In this document: piece by piece, positions 1 to 61,000 of the stretch
Layout of the letters: each line of letters opens with the position of its first letter
How positions within the stretch are numbered: the first letter of the stretch is position 1
Assembly (NCBI GenBank): GCA_018806915.1
Contig: JAGKQI010000095.1
Coordinates: 682,001-746,000, forward strand
Length of the DNA: 64,000 nucleotides
Source of the DNA: Phytophthora colocasiae
Lineage: Eukaryota > Oomycota > Peronosporomycetes > Peronosporales > Peronosporaceae
Reading direction: 5' to 3'
Notes under the pieces: model-generated
Database searches by the model: none
Told to the model about the DNA's origin: nothing
Seen by the model: the letters and a program-made list of their open reading frames with translations, nothing else
Made by a program: the position numbers and the translations under genes

Positions 1-1383
1 AAAAGAGGTTAATATACCAGAGAAAGTCTGAAATCGGTGTCTAAATATCACAAATCCAGAACCGAGATACCTGACTTTCAGAGATAAACAACCAATATAC
101 AGAGTTCGAAAATATACAAATATATACAGCCGTTCTTATTCTTTCTAGGCCCTTGAACGGTGGGCTAACACTCCAGGTCAAGTAGGGACTTGCTACCAGA
201 CACCTGGTCTGTCTGGTATCCCTTTACGTTCGCGCACCACCCTCTAGTATAGAGGGAAAATATAACCACTACAATCGGCTATATATAACAGTCTACCTTG
301 CACTCTGAAAACGACTGTCTAGTTTCCAGAGCCTGTCCAAATGAGCAATATGAAATGGGCTACCGCTAGAGACAAAACAAACGACCCAACTAGGATATGG
401 AATAGGCGGGTCCTTTCAGGTCTTTACGTTACCTGATCTCCACCTAAGGGGATTGAATTTGGTGGAGATCACACGACGTACGTGATGACGCAGTGGCTTG
501 AATACCTCTCAAGCGGACTTGTGCAGTAGCAAGCAAATTGAACTCTGTTTATCGTTTATCTTCCTCATAACTATCATATATCTCTGGTAACTTTCTTCTT
601 CTTGTCATCTTTTGCGTCCGTTGAGCAGTCAGTCTTCATATGTCAGGTACACTTGGCTCTTGTATATATAAGATATCTTGACTTGATCTCAGTATGCAGT
701 CTGTGCAGCCGATCTCGATGGGTTGACAGGTAGAGACGTCATTACGGGGGATATGCAGGTCAGTAATCACTTGAATGCGTGACTTGAACTTGGGTTCACT
801 TGGTTTCAGTATGGTCTTGGATCTTTAGCGGTTTCAGAGTCTGGTATCCTGGTTTTCAGAGTCTGATATCACTTGGTTTTCAGAGTCTTAGTCACTCAGA
901 GTTAGCGATACCAGAGTTTCGAGTAAGAAACCAGAGTACGGAGCACTAATGCTTCAACGTACACGAAGATCTTGAGGGTTGCGCGGGTGCGCGGCGTCCG
1001 GCGCGCGATACTTGGTCTCTGCGGGTATATGTTGTGAATCCTTGAACCATCCATCGTCGCGCTGGACGGTAACGGGATGAGGTCTCTCAGAGATACGTTC
1101 TTCTGAGAGACTTTCCGCCAGAACTTAGGCACTCATCGTCGGGGAAAGTCCGGTGACCAGACAGAGTGTAGTTGACCTTCAGAGTTGTGCACACTCTGAA
1201 GTACACTTCTGGTCCTTTGGGCCCCTTTACAGTCAGGCGAAGGTTTATCCACAATCTTCCACAGATGTCGCACGGGTGCGGCCGCGTCCCAAAATCCCTT
1301 TCGCTCATAACCCATAGTATAACCAATCACATCGTAACGTAATATCCACCTGTCGCTCGAAAATCGGAAATAACATCATGTCA
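1..1383 (-). repeat. E1 3' LTR (type A), truncated by window start
   Basis: Aligns along its length with 43943-45301 and ends in CA at 1382-1383, next to the polypurine tract. It contains no gene. It holds a TATA-like TATATATA on the minus strand at 280-288 and repeated TTTTCAGAGTCTG-like motifs around 853-890. Short ORFs here recur in the other LTR copies only because the DNA is repeated. Confidence 0.93.
280..288 (-). promoter_or_regulatory. TATA-like box of LTR type A
   Basis: A TATATATA stretch on the element's sense strand sits just upstream of the conserved CCCTCT...AGAGGG inverted repeat, where type B LTRs also have TATATAA. The other E1 LTR lacks it through a 17-bp deletion near 44226. 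The assignment rests on position and composition only. Confidence 0.5.
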
Positions 1384-1395
1384 ACCGCCCCTCCT
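1384..1395 (-). other. E1 polypurine tract
   Basis: On the minus strand AGGAGGGGCGGT directly abuts the 3' LTR start (TGACA). The same tract abuts the E2 and E5 3' LTRs. This is the expected plus-strand primer for reverse transcription. Confidence 0.85.
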
Positions 1396-1438
1396 GGTCA
1401 CGATCCATCAGTGCGGAACTTTCTCCAAGCTGTGTATC

Positions 1439-4400
1439 ATGGCCAGGCCTATCAAACATTCTGATAGACGGTTTTCAGAGCGTAGTGTAGCTGCAACTCT
1501 TTGCCAGTTGCCCGGTTTTCAGAGTCTCTGGTGCCCCGTCGCACAGTCTGATTCTCTCAGACTCAGAAACTTGAATTTGATTCGCCCAACGGGCGATCAT
1601 TTTCCAGTCTCCATCCTTTCGCTCATGACTGAGGAAACGAACACTTCCCTGAGCTCGAACGCCTCAGCGAGTGGGGTGGCAGGCGACGCCACAGGCACCT
1701 GTCCTGCTTCGGCAACTGCCAGTGTAGTGCAGGGTGGAGATGTTGGTTCAGCCACATCGCCAGGCGGCAGCTCTAGCGCCCCAGCCCGTGCGTCCGAGCC
1801 TAAGCATTCACAAGTCGATGATCTGGGTGAGAATCCTCCCGGTGGCACTATTGACTCGGTTGGCTCCGGTGATCTTTCGCCAACGGCTGTTTCACATGGA
1901 GGTTCCAGTTCTGAATTCTCTGAGGGAGCTCCTGGCGTTTTCAGACCGCGAGCTTTCGGCGCCCCACGGCTCTTGTCCACGGAAGAGGTCGATCGGCTGT
2001 TTCGTCAGGGTCTGGTGACGTCCACAGGAGACCAAGTCACAGCGTTGGGGGACTCTGATGTTCCCCAGAATTATATTGCTCCCATCGTCAAACCAGAGGG
2101 ACGTGCCTTTCTGGTGAGTACTCCTGCACGGGCTGAAGACTTCAGAAGAGGGCGTCACATAGCGAACGCGTATGGTGGCCCCTGTGTACTCGTGGGTTAC
2201 GAGACACTCACTGACGAAGACCTCCGAGAGCTGGAGCGGGTGATCCCAAGCTTCGAACCTGACGAAGTCGTGTCTCCGTGTGCTCAGACTCCAGACGTGC
2301 GTACTCTGGATGCTCTGACGCCGTCTGTGGAGGTTCGCCGTGAACTGGGATCTCTGGTTTCTCACGTCTCCCCCACTCGACTTGCCGAGAAAGTTTTTCG
2401 GACAGCTGGATGCTTGAAGCTCATGGCCGCTGCTCATCGCCGCCTTCGGGAACGCGTCGGTTCTCAGAACGGCGTCGCCTTGATAGATGCTGCAGCAGCC
2501 CGCTCCGAGTGTGAGGAGATCAAGCGCGAGTGGGTACTACACTGTCAATACTGGAAGCACGAGCTTAAGTGTGCCCAGCAAGACGCCGGTGTGGTAAAAG
2601 AACGCATGGCTTCGGAGACTCAGGACCTCAAGGCTCATTACCAGGACCAAGTGGAAGCTCTGAAGTCGGACAAGGCAACTCTAAAGTCCCAAGTTGCCGA
2701 CCTTCAGGCGCAGGTCTCGATCCTGAAGTCGCGTCCTGAAGTCAAGCCCACGGATCCATGGGGATTCTCAGAGTTCTTACAAGAGAACTCTGAAATCTCT
2801 GGTAATTGGGATCGGCTTCATGACCTTCTGGTGTCGTATCAAGAGGACACCATCGTCCCTGATAACTGGACGACTGTCATCAGTGTGACAGCCTTGGATG
2901 CGCGGAAGAAACCCGTTCCTGATTTCAAGAAACGGCTCTCTGAAGAGCGAGCTCGTCAGGCTGCTGAGAAGGCTGCGACAACCACCAGAGTTCTGGATCT
3001 CACTCGTCCAAGTGCTGAAGCCTCAGAGTCCAAGAGCGAGAGTCCACGGTCTCTGTCATACCCACCGAAGCCCCAGATTCTAAAATCATCTCCTAACCCG
3101 CCGTTCAAGTGGGACCTCAAGAATTTGCAGCGTCGTCCTTCCGGACACAAGCCCGTCGAAGACTCGGTGCTTTCGGCGAATGCAGGTTCCAAGGTGGCAA
3201 AGTCTGAAGTGCACAAGAGGCTCCCTGGTGATGTGGTCTGGAAAGAAGTCCGCCCTGACCTCCGCCAAGCTCTGCTGTCTGGGATCAAGTACGATAAGGC
3301 CATGGAGTGGTTAGCGTCGGACAAAGAAGCTCACAGCCTCTTCAGCAGTCCGGTTCTCGTCCAGATGTTGGTGAGTCTGGTGTTTTCTCGTCGTCTGGAT
3401 TCCACTCCTTGGGCTAAGTATGTCCCTGAGGATGGCTGACGAAGTGGTGGATCGCCATATCTCGGCTGGTACCGAGCCTGCGGCCTGGGGTGACCTGGAT
3501 GGTCACGTGAATTACCCGGAGAGTGATGTTGAGTCCACTGCCGACGACCCCAAGGACGACCCTGATTATAAAGATTCTGGTGCGGTCCAGTCTGGAGACG
3601 AAGATGACGACGGGAGCTCAGATGACGGTGCGTCTGACGACAGCGATTCCGAGAGCGACAAGTCTGAAGACAAGAAGTCTCAAGACAAGAAGTCTCAAGA
3701 CAAGAAGTCTGGTAGCAAGAACTCTGGGGACAAGAAGTCCGGGAGCAAGAAGTCTGGAGACAAGAAGTCTGATGACCACCCGCGTCCTGGTTCCAAGCGT
3801 CCCCGGGACTCTGATGACGACTCGGACTCTGATGATGGACCTATCATCCCCACCAAGAAGGCCAAGAGAAGTATCGCATCCGTAAAGGCCCATACCAGTC
3901 CCAAGTCTCGCCCGAAATCCACCAGTGGAAGTGGATCAAAGTTCAGGAAAAGCGCGGAGTCTGGTATCCAAGCCCTACAATTCCCTGACGTTCAAGGAGC
4001 TCCAGGTGGTGGAAACACCAGACAGTGAGGCATCCTCCTGGTTGTACTATGGCATCAGAGTACAGCGAGTGATCTCCACTAGGACCACCACTGGCCAGAC
4101 ATTGGGTTTCCCAGACTACGAGGTACACAAGCACTCATGTGCCATCCTCAAGAAGCGCTGGGACTCTGAGCGGTACTGTGCGGTCATCCGCAAGAAGCGC
4201 GCCCCTTGGGAAGTCATGTTCGACAACCGATTCTCAGAGTTTTACTTCCACAAGCAGGACGAACTGGGACCCATGGTGTTGGCTGACGTGGAAGACATCG
4301 TGCGCAGCATGAAGAAGCACGCTCAAGACTTCTGGGAGCGAACGCATTGGGTGACCATGGACGTCGAAGCTGACGATAAGTCTGTGGAGCTTCACAAGTA

Positions 4401-13219: not shown

Positions 13220-14102
13220 ATGGCCAGGCCAGTACGTCAGAGGTCCCGTGAACATAGTGTAGCTGTGACGCTCTCAAAACTTCCGGGGTTTCAAAGTCTC
13301 TGGTGTCCTGTCGCTCAGTCTGATTCCATCGGACTCAGAAATAGCCAACTGTCGTATCCCACAAACGGCCACATCCCGATTTCCTTTCTGACACACACCT
13401 CAGAAGAAGATCCAGCAACGATGGGTTCTCCATTGGCTCCTACTAGTGGCAACGCCTCGGGCACTGGGCCCGCTTCGGCATCCACGGCATCGCGAGGTGA
13501 TGATAGCGGCAATGCCGCGTCATCTGGAGGCAGCTCTAGCGCCCCAGCCTCACAGTCGAGCGCGTCCGCCGCCCCGAAGCAGGGCGTTGATGCTGCTGAC
13601 GGCGATGAGCACGTGAACATGCCGGACACATCTGTGGCTTCTGCCTCTGCGAATCCTCCTTCTGGCGTCGCAGTTTCGTTCCCCAGAGGGCCACATATCC
13701 TCTCTACCACCGAGGTAGACGATCTGTTTGGGCCCGGGCAACAACCGTTGGACGAAGAGAAGTCTAACGTCCCTTCCGACTGGGTGGATCCTGAGCCAAG
13801 ACCTGAGGGACAGCCCTTTCTGGTTGGTGTTCCAGCGCTCGCCGAGGATTTCCGTGTGGGCAACCACATCGCGAACATCCATGGTGGGCCTGGTGTACTG
13901 GTTGGCCTCGAAGGCTTCACACCGGCGGACATCTCGGAACTTGAGCGTGTTATCCCCGACTTCACCGAAAGTCAGATGCTCGTCCCTCACGTGGACAGCC
14001 GTAACAGGCTGAGTCTGGAGGCGCACATAGGGTCCGTTGATGTTCTCCGGGAATTGGAGGCAATCCTCCTGCACCTCCCTCATCAGCGTCTCGCCGAGCG
14101 GG
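13220..14102 (+). pseudogene. E2 aORF, 5' part (interrupted by NE)
   Basis: Starts at ATG 13220 (MARPVRQRSR), 55 bp from the 3' LTR, antisense to gag-pol. It encodes the Ser/Ala/Gly-rich N terminus and the conserved block with PHILSTTEVDDLF, GNHIANIHGGPGVLVG and ERVIPDF. Near 14000 it keeps the segment SRNRLSLEAHIGSVD, which E5 has lost through a small deletion. The frame is open up to the NE insertion at 14103 after ...HQRLAERV. It continues at 22329. Confidence 0.8.
14098..14102. repeat. NE target-site duplication, left copy (GCGGG)
   Basis: GCGGG here and at 22329-22333 flank NE. The uninterrupted site is visible in E5 on the minus strand near 60430. Confidence 0.92.
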
Positions 14103-14561
14103 TGTAACGGGGTTACACGTACAAGTGGTTGTACCACTTGTAACTCTAACAGTTAGGATAACTGTTAGAGGTTGGAAATGGGCCTCAGACTTGGTGTGCT
14201 GTACACACCAAAGGATACATGGGCGAACCACATTATTGGATGGTTCGTGTGCATTTGTGCATATTATTGGTAGAAAGTAACGGATTTCTACCAATCACTG
14301 AGCAGAGTTTCTGCCAACCACACGTTGGCAGACCCTTTAGAAATAGATAACAAACAGTTTTAGGAGGTCCATAATTGGCTTATGCCAAATTCAATAACAG
14401 TTCTCATTTTACGGTATTTTGCAGTTTAATTTAGTTATATTTGATTTAATTATACTTATTTAAATAAGTATACTTAAATTAAGTTTATTCTAATTGCACG
14501 CTTCCTCATACACGTAAGCGCACGTGTACGCCACCTAATAGGTCTAGGTAGACCCATTACA
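14103..14561 (+). repeat. NE 5' LTR
   Basis: 459 bp, TGTAAC to TTACA. It consists largely of consecutive hairpins, for example arms TACAAGTGG/CCACTTGTA, CTCTAACAGTT/AACTGTTAGAG, TTGGTAGAAA/TTTCTACCAA and TCTGCCAAC/GTTGGCAGA. It also holds the 20-bp palindrome ATACTTATTTAAATAAGTAT. Confidence 0.95.
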
Positions 14562-14563
14562 CC

Positions 14564-14582
14564 TGGTAGCACTTTGTAGTCC
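14564..14582 (+). other. NE candidate primer-binding site
   Basis: TGGTAGCACTTTGTAGTCC begins two bases after the LTR. TGG is the expected complement of a tRNA CCA end. I cannot assign the tRNA. Confidence 0.5.
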
Positions 14583-14610
14583 GTCCCACGACCGACTGCT
14601 GTTCGTTCGT

Positions 14611-15598
14611 ATGGAGTCATACGAACGCGGGGTAGAGAACTCCCCAATGGATGAGGGATCCGCTGGGACCCCTCACATGTCCGTGACGCGCACGGACTGT
14701 GCCCACCTGTCAGATCCAGAGTGGGAAGCTCTCCAAAGACTTTCACAAGTCATTGGAGAGGCAGCGGTAGCGACGATGCTTCGTACGCTATCGCCGACAG
14801 AGCAACACGGTGTTGCTCTGGGGTACATTGTTAAGGAGCAACGAGATGTTGCTGCCTCGGTGGCTTCCCCTAAGCCACGCGTGGAGTCGTTGAAACTCCA
14901 CGTGAGTACCTACACGGGGAAGGAGGACGAGACCCTCCTTCGTTGGCTTGTCGAACTTGACACAGCCGTTGCGGCTCGACGTATCGTCGATCCGATGTCG
15001 AAGGTCGCGTTCGCCATGTCATGTCTTGGCGGACGTGCGAGGAGTTGGGCCTATGGGCGCCGACTCTCGGATCCTACGTGCTTCAGCACGTATGAGGTGT
15101 TCAAGGAGGAACTCAAACTTGCGTTTGAGCCTCCGAAGAACGAGTTCAGATCGAGAGCGGAGTTTCTCGATCTGCAGCAGGGCAAGGATGATGTTCACAC
15201 CTTTGCCCAGCGTGCTCGATACTTGGTATCGAACATAGTGGCCAACCCGATCGACGAGGCGACCAAGGTCGTCACGTTCATGAAGGGACTAAGAGATGGT
15301 CCCGTCAAGACGTATCTCTTCCGAGAGTATTCGGATACTCTCGAAAGAGGCGATCAGCCTTGCAATGCAAGAGGAGTTTAGCCGGCGTCAAGCTAAACTC
15401 CATGCGAACGCGCCGAAGCCGGCGCGTCCTGTTGTGAAGACGGGAGGTCCGGAACCTATGGACCTCTCGAGTGCTACGACTGCTGGTCAACAGCAGCGTA
15501 GGAACAGCAAGGTTCGATGTTACAAGTGTAGTAACATCGGTCACTATGCACGCGAGTGCACAGCGGGCGGGCGTTCAAAAAACGCCAAGGACCAGTAG
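14611..15598 (+). pseudogene. gag: NE gag (capsid-like domain and CCHC knuckle), one frameshift
   Basis: Starts at ATG 14611 and ends at TAG 15596-15598. A retrotransposon gag-type capsid region (about residues 90-250: LLRWLVELD, ARSWAY, FKEELKLAF, TFMKGLRDG) is followed by a zinc knuckle CYKCSNIGHYAREC (about 15519-15560). An extra A in TCGAAAGAGG (15341-15350) shifts the frame, giving a stop soon after. Without that base the two parts join as one protein of about 330 residues. With almost identical LTRs, this could be a recent mutation or an assembly error. Most of the coding sequence also folds into short hairpins; the knuckle codons carry CGATGTTAC/GTAACATCG. Confidence 0.85.
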
Positions 15599-15618
15599 GC
15601 GCGGGGCGTCATACTGGT
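15577..15618 (+). promoter_or_regulatory. NE -1 ribosomal frameshift signal (gag to protease)
   Basis: The canonical slippery heptamer AAAAAAC (15577-15583) sits in gag's frame as A-AAA-AAC. A 7-nt spacer follows, then a hairpin with arms ACCAGTA (15591-15597) and TACTGGT (15612-15618). The gag stop TAG lies at the base of the loop. A -1 slip leads directly into the open protease frame. Confidence 0.75.
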
Positions 15619-16257
15619 GATGCAGTCTCGCGTGTCGAGCTTGGACACGCGACGATGAGGACTGCTGCCCCCAGCGAGAAGGTTTCTCGCTGTAAGCTGC
15701 AAGATGACAAGTCAGACCTTGTCATCCTGAACGTGATGTCGAAGAGAGTGAACTCTCTTCGTGCCCTAGTGGACTCGGGCGCGTCGAACAACTTTGTTCG
15801 ACAAGGAAGTCTTCGAAGGCTTGACTTCGAGGAGGCCGACACGCCTCGCGGCGTGTTGGAGGTGCGGTTGGCAACAGGTGCCACCGTGAGGACTGAGAAG
15901 CGCGTAGTCCGTGTGCGCTTCTCTTACAAACGAAGGACGTTTGTAGAAGATCTTATCGTCTTGGATCTAGACGATAAGTTCGACTTGGTATTAGGCATGC
16001 CGTGGCTTGCACGACATGACCCGGTGATCAACTGGGAGAAGCGTACACTCGTACGCTTCAACAACACATGCACAACAGAGAGCGATGGCCCTGTCAGTGC
16101 TGCACATGCACCGGCCGGTGCATGTGGATCCCCAGTTGAGGCAGCAGCGGCCGCCGCTGCCTCCGATCGCCGCCGGCGACCATCAACGACTCCGAGAGTC
16201 GTTGAAGAAAATGTGTGTCGACTCAGAAATCTGAGCCGAAGGGTCGCGGTCACATGA
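15577..16257 (+). CDS. pro: NE protease region (pro), 5' part of pol
   Basis: Entered by -1 frameshifting, so a start codon is not needed. A retropepsin-like aspartic protease shows the active-site motif LVDSGASNNF (about 15766-15795), with the flap and C-terminal motif DLVLGMPWL near 15985. The frame closes at TGA 16255-16257, and the downstream linker is read in another frame (from 16206). I see no canonical slippery site at this second shift, so this copy is probably mutated here. Confidence 0.8.
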   Translation, partial: KKRQGPVGAGRHTGDAVSRVELGHATMRTAAPSEKVSRCKLQDDKSDLVILNVMSKRVNSLRALVDSGASNNFVRQGSLRRLDFEEADTPRGVLEVRLATGATVRTEKRVVRVRFSYKRRTFVEDLIVLDLDDKFDLVLGMPWLARHDPVINWEKRTLVRFNNTCTTESDGPVSAAHAPAGACGSPVEAAAAAAASDRRRRPSTTPRVVEENVCRLRNLSRRVAVT

Positions 16258-16338
16258 GTGATGGTCAGGTGAATGTGAATCACCTGACGCATAAACATCT
16301 GAATGATGTTTGTCACATGAGTGATGGTCAGGTGAATC
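16251..16338 (+). repeat. 24-bp direct repeat pair in NE pol linker
   Basis: CACATGAGTGATGGTCAGGT and the next four bases occur at about 16251 and 16315, encoding HMSDGQVN twice. The copies are 64 bp apart and end in hairpin-forming bases. Confidence 0.8.
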
Positions 16339-16427
16339 GCATTCACCTGAAAGAAAGTAAAATACCGGTATTACCGGTATCCTTGGAGGTACTTCAAGCC
16401 CCCAAGGGTCGCGCCGACGACGTCGCG

Positions 16428-16690
16428 TCAACTCTGGGAGTTGACGAAGCAAATAATATTCGGGGAACCGAAAGGCGTGCGTCAGCTCTGGGAGCTGACG
16501 CCACTGGCGCTTCGCTGCTAGTTCCGGGAACTAGCGATCGTACATCCGCTCTGGGAACGGATGATATGTGTATAAGCGAACACTCGCTAGCGCAGGAAGC
16601 TAGCGAGAGCACGTCGACTCCGGGAGTCGACGATGCGGTTGCTTCATCCGCTCCGGGAGCGGATGGAGGCGCAGCGGTTCAGGGAATCGA
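16428..16690 (+). repeat. Array of hairpins with a CYGGGA-type loop in NE linker
   Basis: Successive inverted repeats share a central CTGGGA or CCGGGA: TCAACT/AGTTGA, TCAGCT/AGCTGA, CTAGTT/AACTAG, CATCCG/CGGATG, GTCGACT/AGTCGAC, CATCCGCT/AGCGGATG. Between them lies GCTAGC/GCTAGC. In frame they encode a degenerate ALGAD/TPGVD repeat. The arms vary while the loop and spacing stay alike. Confidence 0.8.
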
Positions 16691-19600
16691 CTGCGCGGCA
16701 GGAGGTGCTGGCGGTTGCAAACGCCCAGCACCCGAACAACCTGCGTGCTCACGTGCAGCAGCGCTGCACGCGATGAGCGGCACTCAAGCCGGGCTTGATA
16801 GTGCGAGTCAGCGGAAGGAATCCGCTGACGATAGCGATAACGTCCCGTCCAAGGTGCGATGCCTTGGACGTGGAGCACCTGGAGCCGAGCTCCATGGTAG
16901 ATCTTCGCGGCGCAAGCTCAGGGAGCTGCGCGAGTCTCAGTCCGGGACTGAGACGGGTGTATCTGCAGTGCAGACAGAGTGTCGAGACGTTGAACGTCTT
17001 GACACGTACTGGTACTGGGTTACAGTACCAGAGGATGCGGTTGGAGAATCCGCCGACGAGTGCGTCGGCGTTGACCGCACTTCCAACGATGAGTTGGAAG
17101 CGCTTCGCGCGAGACTTGTACGATGGACGCATCGAACAAATTTGCATTCTCTCGGATATCGAGAGAGTGGATCGCGAAGCCGAAGAGCTGAAGCAGCTCG
17201 TCGTCGATGGGATCACTGGGGGTGATGACTCCCTCAGTGCGAAGACTAAGAAGCAGCGCTTCGAAGAGCAGAGTTGGGACTCGTTGAGGTCGAGTCCCTA
17301 CTACGAAGTTCTGCGGGAGTACAAGGATGTACTCCCGGACGAGATTCCTTCGGAGCTTCCGAAGGACAAGGGCGTACAGCACGAGATTGATCTCGTGCCG
17401 GGCACGAAGTACTGTGTTACACGGCAGTGGCCACTGCCGCGTGAACAAGTGCAAGCGATCGACGACTTCTTTGAAAGTCGTCGTCTTGCAGGTCAAGTGC
17501 GGGAGTCAAAGTCCCCGCACAGTGCTCCAACGTTCTGTGTGAAGAAACCACAGGGCTGGCGCATCGTTCATGCGTATAACAAGCTGAACGATGCGACGAT
17601 ACCGGCGCAGACGCCGATACCGCGAAAAGATGTTATCATCGATTCGATGGCCTTGAGCACTATCTTCAGTGCTCTAGACCTGCGTGATGGATTCTATCAA
17701 ATCCTCATGCGTGAGAGGGACATCCCTCTCACAGCGGTAAGCACTCCAAGCGGTATGCTTTGGGAGTGGCTCGTCATGCCACAGGGGCTTGAGAACGCCC
17801 CTGCGACGTTCAATAGATGCGTGACACATCTATTGCGCTCGGTGCGCGACTTCGCACCGAGCTACTTCGACGACGTGTTCGTCCACAGCCGGGCTGTGAA
17901 CGGGAAGACGGACATTGAGATGCACAAGGTGCATCTCCGGAAGCTGCTAGAGCTTATGAGGAAACATAAGCTCTATGCGAACCTGAAGAAGTGTATCTTC
18001 GGGGCGAGCGAGATACCCGTGCTGGGGTGTCTCGTGGGGAAAGACGGCGTACGCCCTGACCCAGAGAAGGTCAGAGTGATCAATGAATGGCCCACGCCAT
18101 CCAATGTGAAGGAACTGAGGCAGTTCCTTGGGCTTGCCACGTACTTGTGCAAGTACGTGGAGAACTATGCGGGCAAGATTCGCCCGTTGTCACAGCTTCT
18201 TAAGAAAGAAGCTGAGTGGATTTGGACGACCGAGTGCGAGGAGGCATTCGGTGCAGTCAAGCAGGGCTTGACTGAAGCGCCGATCTTGGCCGTGGCGGAC
18301 CAAGATCGTCCATTCCACGTAGTGTGCGATGCATCCGACTTTGCAATCGGATGTGCATTGATGCAACACGATCACGAAGGGCGTGATCGTGTAGTCTATT
18401 ATCAATCGCGTCAGCTGAAGCCAGCTGAGCGTAATTATCCCGTACATGACAAGGAGCTCCTTGCCATGAAGTATGCACTCGCAAAGTTCCGAGTGTATCT
18501 ACTTGGGAGTAGACCATTCGTGGTCTATACAGACCACGCATCATTGCGTACGGCGATTAAGTCGCCGCACATCTCGCAACGTATGGCGAGATGGTTGTCC
18601 TTCTTCACGGAGTACAACTTCCGGGTGGAGTACAAACCCGGAAGACTCAATGTAGTGGCCGACGCGTTATCGCGTCGACCTGACTATGCGGAGACGGTCG
18701 ACGCCAACGCTGTTGGCGTCGTGAGGACAAGTGTGCCGTCGTCAACGTTGATTGACGACGTGAAGAACGCGTATGCAAGGGATGCAGACGCGAAGGGGCT
18801 GCTGGAGTTCCTCGCAGCACCTTCCGACGTGGCACGTCGGAAGCTAACCCCTCATCTTCGAGCTCGTGTACACCGCTATCGTGTACACGAAGGCCTACTG
18901 TTGTACAGTGCAGTAGACGACAATGCGGATCGCATTGTCGTTCCGAATGATCATGACCTCCGGTTGAGGATCATGTTCGAGTATCACGATGCCCCCACGG
19001 CAGGGCATCCGGGTCGTGAGAAGACATACACTCTTCTTACGCGTGACTTCTACTGGCACCACCAGTACAAGTGGGTGCGCAAGTACGTACGCGCTTGCGA
19101 GGTTTGTCAACGCGTGAAGCCTGCGCAGTTCTCGCAGGCTCCTCTTCAATCACTACCGACTCCGTCGGAGTGTTGGCAGTCCATGTCCATGGACTTTGTC
19201 TTCGGTCTTCCGCCTGACAGCAAGCGGAGGACGGGCATCGTTGTCTTTGTGGACAGATTCAGCAAGATGGTTCATCTTGCTGACGTCCCGGCTACTGTTA
19301 CAGCCGCGCAGACTGCGCGACTGTTTGTTGACATGGTGTTCAAACACCATGGCATGCCGCTCGACATTGTGTCGGACCGTGATCCACGCTTCACAGCGCG
19401 GTTCTGGCAAGAAGTGTTTACACTTCTTGGTTCACAGTTATCAATGTCGACTGCGGATCATCCGCAGACGGACGGACAGACCGAACGTGTCAACCGTGTA
19501 TTGGGTGACACGTTGAAGAGCTACGCTCACTCGTTCCCGCATTGGAGCGAGTGCTTGCCGATGGCAGAGTTTGCCATCAACAACTCGGTGCATGCCTCGA

Positions 19601-20224
19601 CAGGGCATACACCGTTCTACGTGAACGCCATGAGGCATCCACGATTGCCGAGCATGCTCGGCGGGGTAGCTTCCTCCTTAAGTGGGGGAGGATCTACGGT
19701 TGCGTCCGAACAACCGCAGAATGCAACTGATAGCAGCACACTATCAGCTGCGGTGACGCGTGCGACGTCTCGTTCGAGCAGGAACGAGCGCGCGATGTCT
19801 GTGCCGGGCACAGACATAAGAGATGATAGCGAGCAGGCAGGGCCTGCTGCTGACAAGGGCGACAAGCTGAAAGGATTCAGCTCGGGTGCGCTAGACTTTG
19901 TCCAGCGAAGACAAGCCGTCATACGGTTTGTCCAGGATGCTATCGCAGCTTCTGTCGATCGACAGAAGCTGAACGCTGATACTGTTGGTAGAGGCAACAC
20001 AAATGAATTCGACAAGGGTTCATTAGTTTTGTTAGCTACACAAAACCTACCTAGACATGCAGTGTCTGACTTTGGAGCAAGCAAGCTTGCTCCAAGATTC
20101 ATTGGGCCGTTCAAAGTACTTGAACGGCATGGTAACGCGTACAGGCTGGACATACCGTCCAGCATGAGGCTCCACCCGACCTTCTACGTCGGGCGGTTGA
20201 AGCCGTACGTGCAGCACGGACTAC

Positions 20225-21768
20225 CTAAGGCTGGTAGTCCGACTGAGGAGTGCGAGAGGTCTGGAAGGCCTTCTCGAGACCGTCGACACGGTCGATCAAT
20301 CGGTTCACTCTCGTCCCAAGACCGGACGAGAGGTTCGAGGCAGTCTGAGCTGCCTCGCAGACCTCAGCACGGAGGACACGAACCTCCTGCTTCAGAGCAG
20401 CTATCTCAGCGCTCTGTGTCTGCTCCAGCGCAGCAACTCGATCGTGCAGGGCACGATCGTCATGGTCATAGCGTTGACCATGCGGAGGAGTGTTCCCACC
20501 CTCCGCCGCCGTTGCGCGACGCGCGTGGAGCGATCCGCTGGATTGTTGAGCGGATTGTGGCTCATAAGAGAACGAACTCTCAAGGGGTTCGTTTTCGTAT
20601 TCGTTGGAGAGGATTTCCTCCCCATCGAGATACATGGGAGCCGCGGAACGTCCTGATGGAGGACGTTCCGGAAATGGTGAGGGCGTACGAAGCCCACCAT
20701 AACTTGCAGGGTTAAACCCTGCACGAGGAGTGCTGCGGTCAGCCACAGCACTCGGAGCTTCGCGTGGCACAATACGACCACGGAGCTCCTTGATGTGATC
20801 GGGTACACGGACGACCGTGTACCCCAGGAGATCACTTTCGGTAAGGCGTGTTGCCAAGGGTGGGCAACACGGACAGGGTGTGCCAAAAGGAACGGCACAT
20901 GGGATCCCCGCTTCCATGGACTGATCATGGAGGCGTTCACACTTACCACGTGTAGTGTAAGTGTAGTAGCGATCGCGAGCCCCAGCAACGCGATCGCGAT
21001 ACGCCTTCGGGTCTTTGTTGAAGTTATCAACAAAGGCATTCCACGACTGACAAAGTGCCTGCCACTCTGGCACTTTGCTCTTGCGCGAAGTCTTCTTCGC
21101 TGCATAGTATCGGAGTCATGGAAGAGCCCGATATAGTAGTCGCGTCTTTGAGTCTCGGACTCAAAGACAACCTTAGCGGCGACGTCGTCGTCGTTGATAC
21201 TGTTGCATGAGTACAACAGTATCGGATTCGGTGGTGAACTAGCACCGAACCGGTCATGGATTTCTGCCTCAGTAGGCATCCATGGTGTGCGCACTGGCGG
21301 ATCAGTGCGCGGGGCAGTGAGCGCCCTTGACATGGGGGACGCTTCATCATCACTGCGCGGACGCTTCGAGCTTGAAGCGTCCGAGGCCTCATCACGAGGT
21401 CGTCGAGATCCCACGGGTGGGTCTGACGTGTCTTCAGACGAAGACACGGGAGCGGGAGCCTTGACATCAACCTCCCCCTCCTCGACATCCTCCTCGTAGT
21501 CGAGGATGTCTCCGTAGTCCTCTCCAAAGAGTTCTTTGAGAGGGAGAGCAGGATTCTTAATCTCTGCTAGAGAAGAAGACTTCTTCTTCTTCTCATGCTT
21601 CTCCTTATGGAGAGCATGGTACTTGATGACAGAGAGCTTCTCTGTCGGACCGCTGGAAGCAGCAGTGCTAGTGGGCACTGCTGAGGTCGTTGTTCCTGCT
21701 GCAGAGGCAGCAGGTGAGTCTTGCGCGTCCGCAGAAGCGGACGGAGACGTGGGCGTTGGCGAGTCCAT
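20225..21768 (-). pseudogene. NE antisense accessory ORF, unknown function, one frameshift
   Basis: Starts at ATG 21768, 102 bp from the 3' LTR, and runs against pol to a stop at 20225, overlapping pol by about 490 bp on the opposite strand. About 515 codons in two frames meet near 21085. It has a Ser/Thr/Ala-rich N terminus, a Lys-rich patch (KEKHEKKKK), an acidic patch (DILDYEEDVEEGEVD), a basic SSKRPRSD and a middle region with PTEAEIHDRFG and DRYYTYTTRGKCERLHDQS. The C terminus is a clear heptad coiled coil (RVAALEQTQSAEIAALKQEV). I see no similarity to the E1/E2/E5 aORF except position and orientation. Confidence 0.65.
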
Positions 21769-21856
21769 TGCGAAATGAACTCGGATTTCTCTCGGGAACT
21801 TGACGGTCTTGTCAAGTTCTGTTGATTGACGTATCGAGACCGATACGTCGAATCTT

Positions 21857-21869
21857 AACGGGGGGATGG
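21857..21869 (+). other. NE polypurine tract
   Basis: AACGGGGGGATGG directly precedes the 3' LTR start TGTAAC at 21870. Confidence 0.85.
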
Positions 21870-22328
21870 TGTAACGGGGTTACACGTACAAGTGGTTGTA
21901 CCACTTGTAACTCTAACACTTAGGATAACTGTTAGAGGTTGGAAATGGGCCTCAGACTTGGTGTGCTGTACACACCAAAGGATACATGGGCGAACCACAT
22001 TATTGGATGGTTCGTGTGCATTTGTGCATATTATTGGTAGAAAGTAACGGATTTCTACCAATCACTGAGCAGAGTTTCTGCCAACCACACGTTGGCAGAC
22101 CCTTTAGAAATAGATAACAAACAGTTTTAGGAGGTCCATAATTGGCTTATGCCAAATTCAATAACAGTTCTCATTTTACGGTATTTTGCAGTTTAATTTA
22201 GTTATATTTGATTTAATTATACTTATTTAAATAAGTATACTTAAATTAAGTCTATTCTAATTGCACGCTTCCTCATACACGTAAGCGCACGTGTACGCCA
22301 CCTAATAGGTCTAGGTAGACCCATTACA
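21870..22328 (+). repeat. NE 3' LTR
   Basis: 459 bp, same length as the 5' LTR. I noted only two substitutions (near 21918 and 22252). One of them breaks a base pair in the CTCTAACAGTT hairpin. Confidence 0.95.
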
Positions 22329-24718
22329 GCGGGTGTACAAGACATCCGGCTATCTGAAGCAGATGGCCGGGCGCCCACCGTCGGCTTCGGCTTCAAGTTG
22401 AGTCCCAGGGCAACACATCTCTGGTGGACACGGCCGCTATCCAGAACGAGTCCGAAGATCTCAAGCGTCAGTGGGTCTTCAACTGCCAGTATTGGCGTCA
22501 CGAAGTGCTGGACGCCCGGCGTACTGCCGGTGAAATCGAAGATCGTGTGAATGCGGAGTCCAAGAACCTCGCGTCGCACTATCAAGACCAGATAGATGCG
22601 CTGGAGGCCGAAAAGTCGGCCTTGGAAGAACGCCTGGAAGACTCTCGAGCGCGCCCCACGACCACAGCCACAGACTCCTGGGGTTTCCTGGAGTACTTGT
22701 TTGAACACGGGGAGTTGAATGGCAGCTGGGTGGGTCTCCGAGAGCTTCTGGTGAACTTCCAAGAAGGCAAGGCACCTCCAGGAGACTGGGACACCATTAT
22801 CAACGTGACCGCGATGGATCAGCGCAAGGCGGAAATTCCTGACTTCTCCAAGCGTCTGGCGAAAGTTCGCTTCAATCAAGCTGCGGAGGCCAAGAAATCG
22901 GCCAAAGTGCTGGATCTAACGGGTGCTGGCAACGCTGTGACGGTCTCCGGTGAGCATGCTGGCGGCCCCGAGAAGTCAGACACTCGCCAGGTGAACAAGT
23001 CTGGGTCGCCCACCAGGTCGACTAAATCTTCCGGTTCTCCGCCGCTCAAGCCTAACAGGCCTTCTGGGAAACATCAGGTTCGTGTCCCTCAGGATCGCCC
23101 CAAGAACTACACGCCTGGCATCGATTCGGTGCGTCCGGCGAACGCTAAGTCTCCGGTGTCCAAGGACGCGGTTCATACCACGTTACCGGCTGGAGTCGTC
23201 TGGGAGGAAGTTCGTCAGGACTTGCGCTTGGCTCTGCTCGCGGGCATTGCTTACGAGACTGCAATGAAGTGGCTTCGCACGGACAAGCCTGCCCACAGCC
23301 TGTTCACGGGGCGCCCCTTGGTACAAATGCTAGTGAGCATGATGTACTGGCGCAAGCTGAATCAGACCCCGTGGACTTCGTACGTCCCAGAGACGTATTA
23401 CAAGATGGCTGAGGAGGAACTGCGCCGTCTTCAGAAGAACGATGTGGAGCCACCGGTCTGGGAGACACTGGACGCTCACGTCCCGTATCCTATCAGTGAG
23501 CCTGAGTCCACAGAGGATGACCCTCAGAAGGACCCGGACTTCGAGGAGTCTGGTGAACAAGAATCTGTATCCAGCGAAAGTGAATCTGACGACGAAAAGT
23601 CAAGTGGCAACAGCGATGACTCTGACGACGATGAGTCTGACGGTCATTCGCATGCCGGTAACAAGCGTCCGCGAGACTACGAGTCCAGCGATTCAGACGA
23701 CTCGGGTCCGATAATCCCCACCAAGAAATCCAAGCGGGGTAGTGTACACGAGACATCCCGATCCAAGTCAGGCAGTCAGAAGTCCGGTGGCACTTCCACG
23801 TCAAGTCTCAAAAGCAAGAAGTCCGGTGGTTCGCCCAAGTCGAGCTCCAAGGACAAGAAGTCTCAAGACTCCAAGTCGCCTAAGAGTTCTTCGGGCAAGC
23901 GACCTTCTGGTAAACTCCGGAAGTCACGTCTGGTGTCCAAGTCGTACAAGTTGCTGACACCAAAGGAGTTGCTCACGATCGAGGCCCCGGACACACATTG
24001 TTCGTCGTGGCTGTACTACGGTATCCCGCTCCAGCCGACCAGGGATACCAAGACGGCCATCGGGCAGACTCCCGGGTTCCCAGACTTCGAGCCCCACAGA
24101 CACAGTTTGGCGCGTCTGAAGAAACGCTGGAATTCCAAGAAATATCAAGCTCTGCTGGACGAAGTGCCAGCGCCCTGGGACGTCATGTACCAGAACCGCC
24201 GGACCGAGCTGTACTTTCACCGGCGTGAAGACCTCTGTCCCTTGGTTCAGGCGGACATCGAAGAACTCGCGTCTCTCATGCGCAAGCACGCCCAAGCGCT
24301 GTGGGAACGCACTCACTGGGTGATAATGGATCCCGATTATGACCTGCTGTCCGGTGAACAGCACAAGGAACGTGGGCTCCGACGTGCGTCTCTACTACGC
24401 CAATATCGAGGGACAGTATCCAAGATTCTGAAGCACAAGGATTTTCCGGAGACGCTCATGTTCGAGCCTGGCATCTGGAAGATCCCGGACAAATATTGCC
24501 CATGGATCTGGCAGGACCCACGTGCACGTGACATCGGAGGTCCCAAGTGCCTGAGCTTGCGTAAGCAACTCGAAGCTATCGACTCAGCGGAACCGGCGCG
24601 CACGCAGTGGGCCACAGCGTCTGCCGACAAGGACTGGATGCAATTCGTGCCATCCGATCTCCGGAAGCAAGCTCTGACGCCCGCTGAACGCGCCGAAAAT
24701 CCTGTCTCTCTGAAGTAA
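22329..24718 (+). pseudogene. E2 aORF, 3' part
   Basis: Continues the aORF after NE. An extra G in GGCCGGGCGCCC (about 22361-22371; E5 has one fewer) shifts the frame. From about 22390 it is open to the stop at 24718. It encodes the coiled coil (ESEDLKRQW to ALEERLEDS), the WEEVRQDLRLALLAGI block, the Ser/Asp-rich stretch, a KRPRDYESSDSDDS plus PTKKSKR basic patch, and the C-terminal domain with SWLYYGIP, GFPDFEPHRHS, WERTHWVIMD and YCPWIWQDPRA. Compared with E5 it lacks seven residues (EVRLLKA) after the coiled coil. Function unknown. Confidence 0.8.
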
Positions 24719-58022: not shown

Positions 58023-61000
58023 TTACTTCAGAAAGATAGGATTTTCGGCGCGTTCAGCGGGCGTCAGAGCTTGTTTCCGGAGATCGGATGGCACGAATTG
58101 CATCCAGTCCTTGTCGGCAGACGCTGTGGCCCACTGCGTGCGCGCCGGTTCCGCTGAGTCGATAGCTTCGAGTTGCTTGCGCAAGCTCAGGCACTTGGGA
58201 CCTCCGATGTCACGTGCACGTGGGTCCTGCCAGATCCATGGGCAATATTTGTCCGGGACCTTCCAGATACCAGGCTCAAACATGAGCGTCTCCGGGAAAT
58301 CCTTGTGCTTCAGGATCTTGGATACTGTCCCTCGATATTGACGTAGTAGAGACGCACGTCGGAGCCCACGTTCCTTGTGCTGTTCACCGGACAGCAAGTC
58401 ATCATCGGGATCCATTATCACCCAGTGAGTGCGTTCCCACAGCGCTTGGGCGTGCTTGCGCATGAGAGACGCGAGTTCTTCGATGTCCGCCTGAACCAAG
58501 GGACAGAGGTCTTCACGCCGGTGAAAGTACAGCTCGGTCCGGCGGTTCTGGTACATGACGTCCCAGGGCGCTGGCACTTCGTCCAGCAGAGCTTGATATT
58601 TCTTGGAATTCCAGCGTTTCTTCAGACGCGCCAAACTGTGTCTGTGGGGCTCGAAGTCTGGGAACCCGGGAGTCTGCCCGATGGCCGTCTTGGTATCCCT
58701 GGTCGGCTGGACCGGGATGCCGTAGTATAGCCACGACGAACAATGTGTGTCCGGGGCTTCGATCGTCAGCAATTCCTTTGGTGTTAGTGACTTGTACGAC
58801 TTGGACACCAGACTTGACTTCCGGAGTTTACCAGAAGGTCGCTTGCCCGAAGAACTCTTTGACGACTTGGAGTCTTGAGACTTCTTGTCCTTGGAGCTCG
58901 ACTTGGGCGAACCACCGGACTTCTTGCTCTTGGGACTTGACGTGGAGGTGCCACCGGACTTCTGACTGCCTGACTTGGATCGGGATGCCTCGTGTACACT
59001 ACCCCGCTTGGATTTCTTGGTGGGGATTATCGGACCCGAGTCGTCTGAATCGCTGGACTCGTAGTCCCGTGGACGCTTGTTACCGGCGAGCGAATGACCA
59101 TCAGACTCATCGTCGTCAGAGTCATCGCTGTTGCCGCTCGACTTTTCGTCGTCAGACTCACTGTCGCTGGATGCAGATTCTTGTTCACCAGACTCCTTGA
59201 AGTCCGGGTCCTTCTGAGGTCATCCTCTGTGGACTCAGGTTCGCTGATGGGATACGGGACGTGAGCGTCCAGTGCCTCCCAGACCGGTGGCTCCACATCG
59301 TTCTTCTGAAGACGGCGCAGTTCCTCCTCAGCCATCTTGTAGTACGTCTCTGGGACGTACGAGGTCCACGGAGTTTGATTTAGTTTGCGCCAGTACATCA
59401 TGCTCACCAGCATTTGTACCAAGGGGCGCCCCGTGAACAGGCTGTGGGCAGGCTTGTCCGTGCGAAGCCACTTCATTGCAGTCTCGTAAGCAATGCCCGC
59501 GAGCAGAGCCAAGCGCAAGTCCGGACGAACTTCCTCCCAGACGACTCCAGCCGGTAACGTGGTATGAACCGCGTCCTTGGACACCGGAGACTTAGCGTTC
59601 GCCGGACGCACCGAATCGATGCCAGGCGTGTAGTTCTTGGGGCGATCCTGAGGGACACGAACCTGATGTTTCCCAGAAGGCCTGTTAGGCTTGAGCGGCG
59701 GAGAACCGGAAGATTTAGTCGACCTGGTGGGCGACCCAGACTTGTTCACCTGGCGAGTGTCTGACTTCTCGGGGCCGCCAGCATGCTCACCGGAGACCGT
59801 CACAGCGTTGCCAGCACCCGTTAGATCCAGCACTTTGGCCGATTTCTTGGCCTCCGCAGCTTGATTGAAGCGAACTTTCGCCAGACGCTTGGAGAAGTCA
59901 GGAATTTCCGCCTTGCGCTGATCCATCGCGGTCACGTTGATAATGGTGTCCCAGTCTCCTGGAGGTGCCTTGCCTTCTTGGAAGTTCACCAGAAGCTCTC
60001 GGAGACGCACCCAGCTGCCATTCAACTCCCCGTGTTCAAACAAGTACTCCAGGAAACCCCAGGAGTCTGTGGCTGTGGTCGTGGGGCGTGCCTTCAGTAG
60101 TCGGACCTCCGCTCGAGAGTCTTCCAGGCGTTCTTCCAAGGCTGACTTTTCGGCCTCCAGCGCATCTATCTGGTCTTGATAGTGCGACGCGAGGTTCTTG
60201 GACTCCGCATTCACACGATCTTCGATTTCACCGGCAGTACGCCGGGCGTCCAGCACTTCGTGACGCCAATACTGGCAGTTGAAGACCCACTGACGCTTGA
60301 GATCTTCAGACTCGTTCTGGATAGCGGCCGTGTCCACCAGAGATGTGTTGCCCTGGGACTCAACTTGAAGCCGAAGCCGACGGTGGGCGCCGGCCATCTG
60401 CTTCAGATAGCCGGATGCCTTGTACACCCGCTCGGCGAGACGCTGATGAGGGAGGTGCAGGAGGATTGCCGCCAATTCCCGGAGAACATCAACGGACCCT
60501 ATGTGCGCCTCCAGACTCAGGGCTGTCCACGTGAGGGACGAGCATCTGACTTTCGGTGAAGTCGGGGATAACACGCTCAAGTTCCGAGATGTCCGCCGGT
60601 GTGAAGCCTTCGAGGCCAACCAGTACACCAGGCCCACCATGGATGTTCGCGATGTGGTTGCCCACACGGAAATCCTCGGCGAGCGCTGGAACACCAACCA
60701 GAAAGGGCTGTCCCTCAGGTCTTGGCTCAGGATCCACCCAGTCGGAAGGGACGTTAGACTTCTCTTCGTCCAACGGTTGTTGCCCGGGCCCAAACAGATC
60801 GTCTACCTCGGTGGTAGAGAGGATATGTGGCCCTCTGGGGAACGAAACTGCGACGCCAGAAGGAGGATTCGCAGAGGCAGAAGCCACAGATGTGTCCGGC
60901 ATGTTCACGTGCTCATCGCCGTCAGCAGCATCAACGCCCTGCTTCGGGGCGGCGGACGCGCTCGACTGTGAGGCTGGGGCGCTAGAGCTGCCTCCAGATG

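Follow-up and report, generated by a model that had tools for sequence, protein, structure and literature searches.

The 64,000-nucleotide window analysed here (contig JAGKQI010000095.1, positions 682,001 to 746,000) lies within the 92.5-Mb, 105-contig assembly GCA_018806915.1 of Phytophthora colocasiae and contains, at 14103-22328, the element that we call NE and that is the subject of our hairpin counts. Judged by its sequence, NE is a Ty3/gypsy chromovirus-type retrotransposon: it carries a pair of long terminal repeats (LTRs) and a target-site duplication, and its Pfam domains run in the order gag, protease, reverse transcriptase (RT), RNase H and integrase, with a chromodomain at the integrase end. 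Short perfect hairpins tile most of its length, coding regions included. The 459-bp 5' LTR (14103-14561, forward strand; TGTAAC...TTACA), recognized as a direct repeat and by LTR matches, is nearly identical to the 3' LTR (21870-22328, forward), suggesting a recent insertion, and both are flanked by the duplication GCGGG, read directly from the sequence at 14098-14102 and 22329-22333. Between the LTRs lie, on the forward strand, a gag frame (14611-15381, stop-to-stop 14548-15381; PF03732, E 9.3e-14), an aspartic protease frame (15535-16257; PF08284, E 3.1e-9), a linker with a hairpin array (16091-16780) and pol (16777-20715), where Pfam finds RT, RNase H, integrase, SH3 and chromodomain; all of these are tiled, pol throughout. 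A zinc knuckle of the form C-x2-C-x4-H-x4-C can be read at 15518-15559 (forward) in a phase different from that of the gag frame. On the reverse strand, a tiled open frame of 492 codons (20401-21879) precedes the 3' LTR.

The copy in the window looks frame-disrupted, since the frames of gag, protease and pol are interrupted, the zinc knuckle is out of phase and other copies are more open, with frames around RT reaching 1753 codons. RT matches were scored at 86 places in the genome, the window's own included, and among full-length LTR matches the best 40 show 99-100% identity, which indicates that the NE family is young. Most Phytophthora proteins among the 120 RT relatives listed match the query over its length at 80-92% identity (the lowest at 71%, over 76%), and no DNA relatives were found in viral and prokaryote contigs. 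Two structural oddities were seen among the copies: an AT-rich imperfect palindrome of ~42-55 bp towards the 3' side of the LTR (14435-14495), which matches its own reverse strand at 85-90% across LTR copies, and, in copy L016 (G000:C48), a 5' block of ~0.9 kb of gag-protease that is inverted in place.

Searching for non-overlapping perfect inverted repeats with arms of at least 8 bp and loops of at most 30 nt gave 116 hairpins in NE against a mean of 2.25 in eight Markov shuffles. With arms of at least 7 the count was 156 against ~12.8, and with arms of at least 10 it was 42 against none. Arm lengths are narrowly distributed around a mode of 9 (40, 28, 46, 23, 16, 2 and 1 hairpins with arms of 7, 8, 9, 10, 11, 12 and 13 bp); only 3 arms reach 12 bp or more. 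Loops are mostly 0-11 nt, spans peak at 23 nt and hairpin centres lie on average ~53 nt apart. The excess ends at the boundaries of the element, with 10-18 hairpins per 1-kb bin inside and 0-5 outside. The first-pass annotation, made from the sequence alone, had described hairpins from end to end and listed examples, all of which exist: AGAGCAACAC and CGGAACGTCC are parts of 11-bp arms, at 14798-14820 and 20644 respectively, CAGATCGAGA, GGAGTTTAGC and GCACGAGAT stand at 15147, 15373 and 17379, and the 18-bp palindrome occupies 17422-17439, while CAGCGAGAA begins at 15672 rather than 15675 and GATGACAAG at 15703 rather than 15704. Its count of ten arms of at least 8 bp in 14650-15600 is exact; non-overlapping arms of at least 7 number 16 there, plus one running from 15591 past 15600. 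The tiling does cover LTR, gag, pol and antisense frame, but it is uneven: the 3' part of the LTR and the leader (14341-14603) have a paired fraction of 0.14, compared with 0.28-0.48 elsewhere. Six hairpins with arms of 7-12 lie in the U3 part of the 5' LTR (14120-14332).

Coding constraint does not account for the pattern. In shuffles that keep both the protein and the codon usage (arms of at least 8, loops of at most 20), pol has 50 hairpins against 1.98 (the maximum of 40 shuffles was 5), gag (14548-15381) 8 against 0.25, protease 12 against 0.80 and the antisense-frame part (20719-21879) 19 against 0.70. Seven other long open reading frames of the window, five with gypsy domains and two without a Pfam match, have 0-2 hairpins against 0.28-1.30, in agreement with the earlier remark that the gypsy pol regions E1, E2 and E5 (taken here as those near 5-9, 25-29 and 53-58 kb) do not resemble NE. 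Chance, base composition or codon usage is thus virtually impossible as an explanation: it is refuted by the Markov and codon shuffles, and we found nothing in its favour. No strong preference of the hairpins for a codon register was seen (20, 19 and 11 in pol). Stem length is inversely related to GC content (rho -0.27, P 0.0016, n=139; +0.06 in shuffles), longer stems being AT-richer, as could be expected if stability matters.

Two kinds of known hairpin were considered and rejected. For known RNA families, no Rfam match at the gathering threshold was found in NE. Mobile short hairpin elements, such as the double-hairpin elements of fungal mitochondria, also place many small palindromes in one genome; in NE, by contrast, the arms are nearly all distinct, with no common unit except the GGG-type core of the linker array, which rules out mobile hairpin insertions.

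The tiling is a property of the family and not of one copy. Neither of the two outcomes that the first-pass annotation named as refuting was obtained, since density far exceeds that of codon-matched shuffles and the other copies are tiled as well. All 30 of the 5-kb pieces that were fetched (29 other copies and the window's own) are tiled, with 12.8-16.0 hairpins per kb. Beyond the family, we surveyed 27 sequences of this genome, comprising 20 new loci together with NE, E1, E2, E5, A, B and C, chosen by profile hits rather than as a census. The seven that are at least 48% identical to NE are all enriched in hairpins: NE with 28 against 0.60 expected, two rows of subfamily D with 12 and 11 against ~0.7, B with 13 against 1.2, A with 11 against 1.1, L069 with 4 against 0.63 and, weakly, C with 4 against 1.0. 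Arms in subfamily D are mostly 7-8 bp, and a further 1.3 kb at its 3' end is also tiled (14 hairpins with arms of at least 7 against 1.45). The other 20 rows, eight of which are near copies of one another, have 0-3 hairpins (the highest being E2, with 3 against 0.53), and none shows a clear excess at arms of at least 7 (0-3 against 1.1-2.9). In an RNase H-integrase tree of 25 rows of this genome, the eight enriched rows fall on one side of a single branch with support 67/91, recovered in 65% of bootstrap trees, and none of 500 label shuffles scored as low. The tree thus gives moderate support to the tiled families forming one group.

Within this group the density is shared, and the individual hairpins seem largely to have turned over, because their positions mostly differ between subfamilies. 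Projected on the NE protein, hairpins of A and B coincide with NE hairpins no more often than chance would give (1/10, 1/12, 0/10 and 2/14, with 14% expected), which rules out conserved functional hairpins at homologous positions for these two subfamilies; for C the overlap is 2/4, too few to weigh. Subfamily D overlaps partly, with 11 of 26 hairpins on NE hairpins against 5.3 expected (95% range 2-10), perhaps because the same conserved motifs (SKMVHLA, VVYTDH) permit the same palindromes. A deep test for compensatory change across subfamilies gave a weak signal only. Compared to see whether one arm acts as donor and the other as recipient, amino-acid conservation is 0.73 in 5' arms, 0.75 in 3' arms and 0.79 outside; the near-relative class of this comparison had no usable codons.

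The first-pass annotation had offered selection for a compact structured RNA genome as one possible cause. The folding excess on which this idea depends is real: against shuffles, the sense strand reaches z-scores of -20.0 in pol, -15.2 in gag and -9.2 in protease. The antisense strand, however, folds about as strongly (-21.2, -10.9 and -7.5, respectively). If only the sense RNA were under selection, G.U pairs should be tolerated. Since the hairpin search demands perfect stems, strand preference was examined through mismatches. Stems with one mismatch and at least 8 pairs contain A.C in 14 cases, G.T in 11 and other mismatches in 11. Stem variants that leave G.T and A.C are about equally common among singletons (53 vs 49) and shared variants (15 vs 17), so that the type giving G.U in sense RNA is not in excess, and G.U makes up 7% of predicted pairs, compared with 12-14% when codons were shuffled once. 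DNA, or RNA of both strands, agrees with this pattern, and selection on sense RNA only is disfavoured because G.U is not favoured and the antisense strand is about as strongly folded. A sense RNA genome structured for packaging, stability or translation control would explain the very strong sense fold excess, the stronger folding of sense than antisense in gag and the thin tiling of 14341-14603, which would include the 5' leader. Given the two-strand folding, the lack of G.U preference and the hairpins of A and B at non-homologous places, with only partial overlap in D, we consider it decidedly improbable.

The closest comparison on the RNA side is genome-scale ordered RNA structure (GORS) of positive-strand RNA viruses, which uses G.U pairs and mixed stem lengths. 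GORS shares with NE a dense secondary structure across the coding regions of a replicating genome and a dependence on clade, and in NE the fold energy of the genomic strand is likewise far below shuffles across the coding region. NE differs in that its stems are perfectly Watson-Crick, show no preference for G.U and occur on both strands, and in that the element is reverse-transcribed and passes through a DNA phase; its structure is not specific to the genomic strand, and G.T mismatches do not exceed A.C.

Folding of both strands is what another of the suggested causes, escape from small-RNA silencing, would need: guide and target of 21-26 nt small RNAs would each self-fold, with arms short enough to evade Dicer. 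This idea is compatible with the two-strand folding and with spans peaking at 23 nt, and only 3 of 156 arms exceed 11 bp. In Phytophthora infestans, small RNAs fall into classes of 21, 25/26 and 32 nt and map throughout the two commonest gypsy elements in both orientations (PMC3522703). Yet the host harbours other gypsy families too, and of the clades surveyed a single one is tiled; small-RNA escape as the explanation seems distinctly unlikely.

Variation among the copies bears on whether stems are maintained. The 29 copies were mapped by BLAST to the window copy, and stems were defined as those present in at least 5 of 30. Variants found in at least three copies, which we read as mostly inherited through replication, affect 22 of 1454 stem sites and 101 of 3103 other sites (P 5e-4), with 28 of 356 in loops. 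At third codon positions of pol the depletion is sharper (2/279 in stems vs 41/729, P 1.7e-4), and at first and second positions it is not significant (2/549 vs 12/1465). Singletons, read as mostly post-insertion, do not differ (10.6% in stems vs 12.0%, P 0.18). Stems thus seem to be kept during replication, as widely shared variants are depleted in them and singletons are not. Six further copies diverge from the window copy by 0-2.6% in stems and 2.1-3.9% elsewhere, a comparison biased in this direction because the stems were defined on the window copy. Counts from a MAFFT alignment (shared variants in 5.4% of stem, 13.5% of loop and 7.8% of other sites; 39 pairs with two Watson-Crick types) were set aside for misaligned stretches in L002, L007, L008, L016, L018 and L020; the BLAST-mapped counts used here run in the same direction with smaller numbers. 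Separately, shared variants between 15000 and 20000 are ~2.5 times commoner in loops than outside hairpins. This loop excess is clearest at first and second positions of pol (6/135 vs 12/1465), and loop inversions explain part of it only.

Compensatory change, for which a check in related copies had been proposed, is no more than hinted at among the mapped copies. All 14 cells (6 distinct) in which both sides of a stem pair differ from the window copy are Watson-Crick, compared with 1-5 of 3-20 in eight slid controls. No doubly changed pair was found in the six further copies (0/1389 cells).

The copies also record how some loops changed. Loops of 2-12 nt were compared, by mapped positions, at 99 hairpin sites. 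They include 14 alleles that differ by at least 2 bases, and 5 of these are exact reverse complements (CCGA/TCGG, CGC/GCG, GCT/AGC, GCA/TGC and TT/AA) where 0.28 would be expected (P ~1e-5). In the hairpin CGAGAGTAT-loop-ATACTCTCG (15322-15343) the window copy has TCGG and 27 copies have CCGA. At the 10-bp hairpin of 16328-16350, 11 copies read CGC and 8 read GCG; the 10-bp hairpin at 18699-18721 holds two inversion pairs (GCT/AGC and GCA/TGC), and that at 19408-19429 has TT in 27 copies and AA in one. Two of the inverted alleles are inherited or recurrent, as they are carried by 8 and 3 copies. In subfamily B none of six multi-base loop alleles is an inversion, and A and C have no such alleles. 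The inversions show that template switching occurs at NE loops; by inference, it would also build the stems.

Loop flips of this kind speak for a purely mutational origin, a form of which (template-switch correction of imperfect palindromes during reverse transcription) had been among the causes first suggested. Here RT or host replication folds back, copies one arm onto the other and perfects palindromes, and no selection is involved. Such copying predicts the absence of a G.U preference and the folding of both strands; a property of RT would give the restriction to one clade, and the mostly unshared positions between subfamilies also agree. The same signatures are known outside NE: host DNA replication in yeast homogenizes arms and inverts spacers, the inversions there appearing only where arms exceed 9 bp (PMC8604942), and PMC8794818 proposes that template switching creates and maintains stems in RNA genes. 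The inverted repeats described in those papers resemble NE in their perfect arms of 7-16 bp, spacer inversion and multi-base changes in coding DNA, and differ in scale, with tens of genes across a host genome there and ~150 palindromes in 8.2 kb here. As flips occur in ordinary yeast hairpins too, those in NE may be a consequence of hairpins and not their cause. Paired changes in stems are few and none is clean. We also simulated fold-back copying forward in time with the protein as the only filter (innermost seed of at least 4, arms capped at 11, 15% free codons), a crude model whose run with most switches was limited in time. When accepted switches numbered from 0.6 to 5 times as many as point changes, simulated pol held 28-33 hairpins with arms of at least 8 against 50 observed, and its stem/outside ratio of third-position divergence was 0.58-0.93 against 0.13 for variants in at least three copies or 0.36 for heterozygosity. 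In this model, template switching alone would undershoot both density and stem conservation, which is a lean and not a proof. As the sole cause, mutation of this kind is in our view rather unlikely.

The linker shows the interplay of palindrome and protein most directly. Its array encodes S-[TA]-[LP]-G-[VAT]-D units, and S-x-[LP]-G-x-D units, here and once at 19795, read as TC...GA palindromes. Their two variable residues mostly change together, which keeps the palindrome perfect: T pairs with V, A with A and V with T. SALGTD is the one common unit that departs from this rule, and its hairpin is also broken. In the linker the units vary between NE copies, and those with a GGG-type core recur as perfect palindromes at 16400-16680 and, distantly, at 19795-19817.

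The antisense frame at 20401-21879 belongs to a protein family conserved in Phytophthora, from which 64 of its 65 matches come, the other being a metagenome protein; one match has an RNase H domain and the rest have none. One match is a P. citrophthora protein (79% identity over 93%). Between them, the RT and antisense-frame searches matched proteins of P. cinnamomi, P. ramorum, P. sojae, P. citrophthora and Globisporangium. At 74 of 89 places matched by a P. sojae relative, counted whether or not they lie in an NE copy, a frame of 519-565 codons is open, and subfamily D also has an antisense frame, without BLAST similarity. Long frames antisense to pol likewise lie 3' of the pol of untiled gypsy elements (1343-3439 and 22358-24718, forward; 59027-60802, reverse), with no Pfam match above cut-off, and antisense genes may be general in these gypsy elements. 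An antisense gene does not seem to explain the tiling, because such frames also adjoin the untiled E1, E2 and E5, to which they are assigned from position.

The combined results lead us to a tentative model, to which we give somewhat less than an even chance, in which NE carries a clade-wide, selected hairpin lattice that is fed by template switching. What the data show is the density, its limitation to one clade of the families surveyed, the fold excess of both strands, the mostly differing positions between subfamilies, the scarcity of widely shared variants in stems and occasional loop flips; the model goes beyond these. New or improved stems would arise partly when the template is switched over short fold-backs, perhaps while the element is being reverse-transcribed by its own enzyme, and would persist since copies with broken stems leave fewer descendants; selection is suggested because widely shared variants avoid stems and single-copy variants do not. 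The benefit, at a guess, would be that every single-stranded form (sense RNA, antisense RNA and both cDNA strands) is locally self-folded, which might reduce pairing with opposite-strand RNA or small RNAs, or might compact the nucleic acid in the particle. A more specific proposal, that the both-strand hairpin state is a heritable trait of the clade, selected as every strand must self-fold, with the palindromes written by the element's own fold-back reverse transcription and the linker amino acids bent to fit, appears unlikely.

Several observations weigh against a selected lattice. Gypsy families outside the NE clade survive untiled in this genome, and tiling is therefore not something that every element needs. 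The evidence for stem maintenance comes at low depth, the copies being 1-3% different from the window copy; when only four-fold sites are counted, the depletion falls short of significance (1/144 in stems vs 12/374, P 0.12), and heterozygosity at pol third positions, which includes post-insertion changes, shows a smaller drop (0.0108 in stems vs 0.0297). In a stricter set, two Watson-Crick types occur in 7 of 730 stem pairs, mostly in the repeat-like linker, and the two stems with single-copy paired changes that were inspected (L018, L008) each have another broken pair, so that none is a clean arm conversion. The relation of stem length to GC might also arise if a seed rich in AT had to reach more pairs before the template could be switched. 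The strands, moreover, may not be quite equal, because one-mismatch stems lean to A.C at stricter thresholds (12 vs 6 G.T at 9 pairs or more, 8 vs 1 at 10 or more); such a lean would point to the antisense or the first cDNA strand.

The set of domains, LTRs and target-site duplication is that of Phytophthora Ty3/gypsy chromovirus-type elements, for which hairpin tiling is not described in the literature found. Consistent with the earlier statement that no such description was known, the titles and abstract openings of the top-ranked matches in our search, which covered few subscription papers, held no report of hairpin tiling along any retrotransposon. If selection keeps the tiling, the shape of the nucleic acid would constrain a whole mobile element, coding regions included, and along much of the element would compete with the choice among synonymous codons. 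Should reverse transcription be the writer, NE would show to an extreme degree how template switching can shape a genome, and would offer a natural system in which to measure the rate and patch length of the process. Because tiled and untiled gypsy families share one genome, a single cell allows them to be compared in their small RNAs, RNA folding and mutation spectra.

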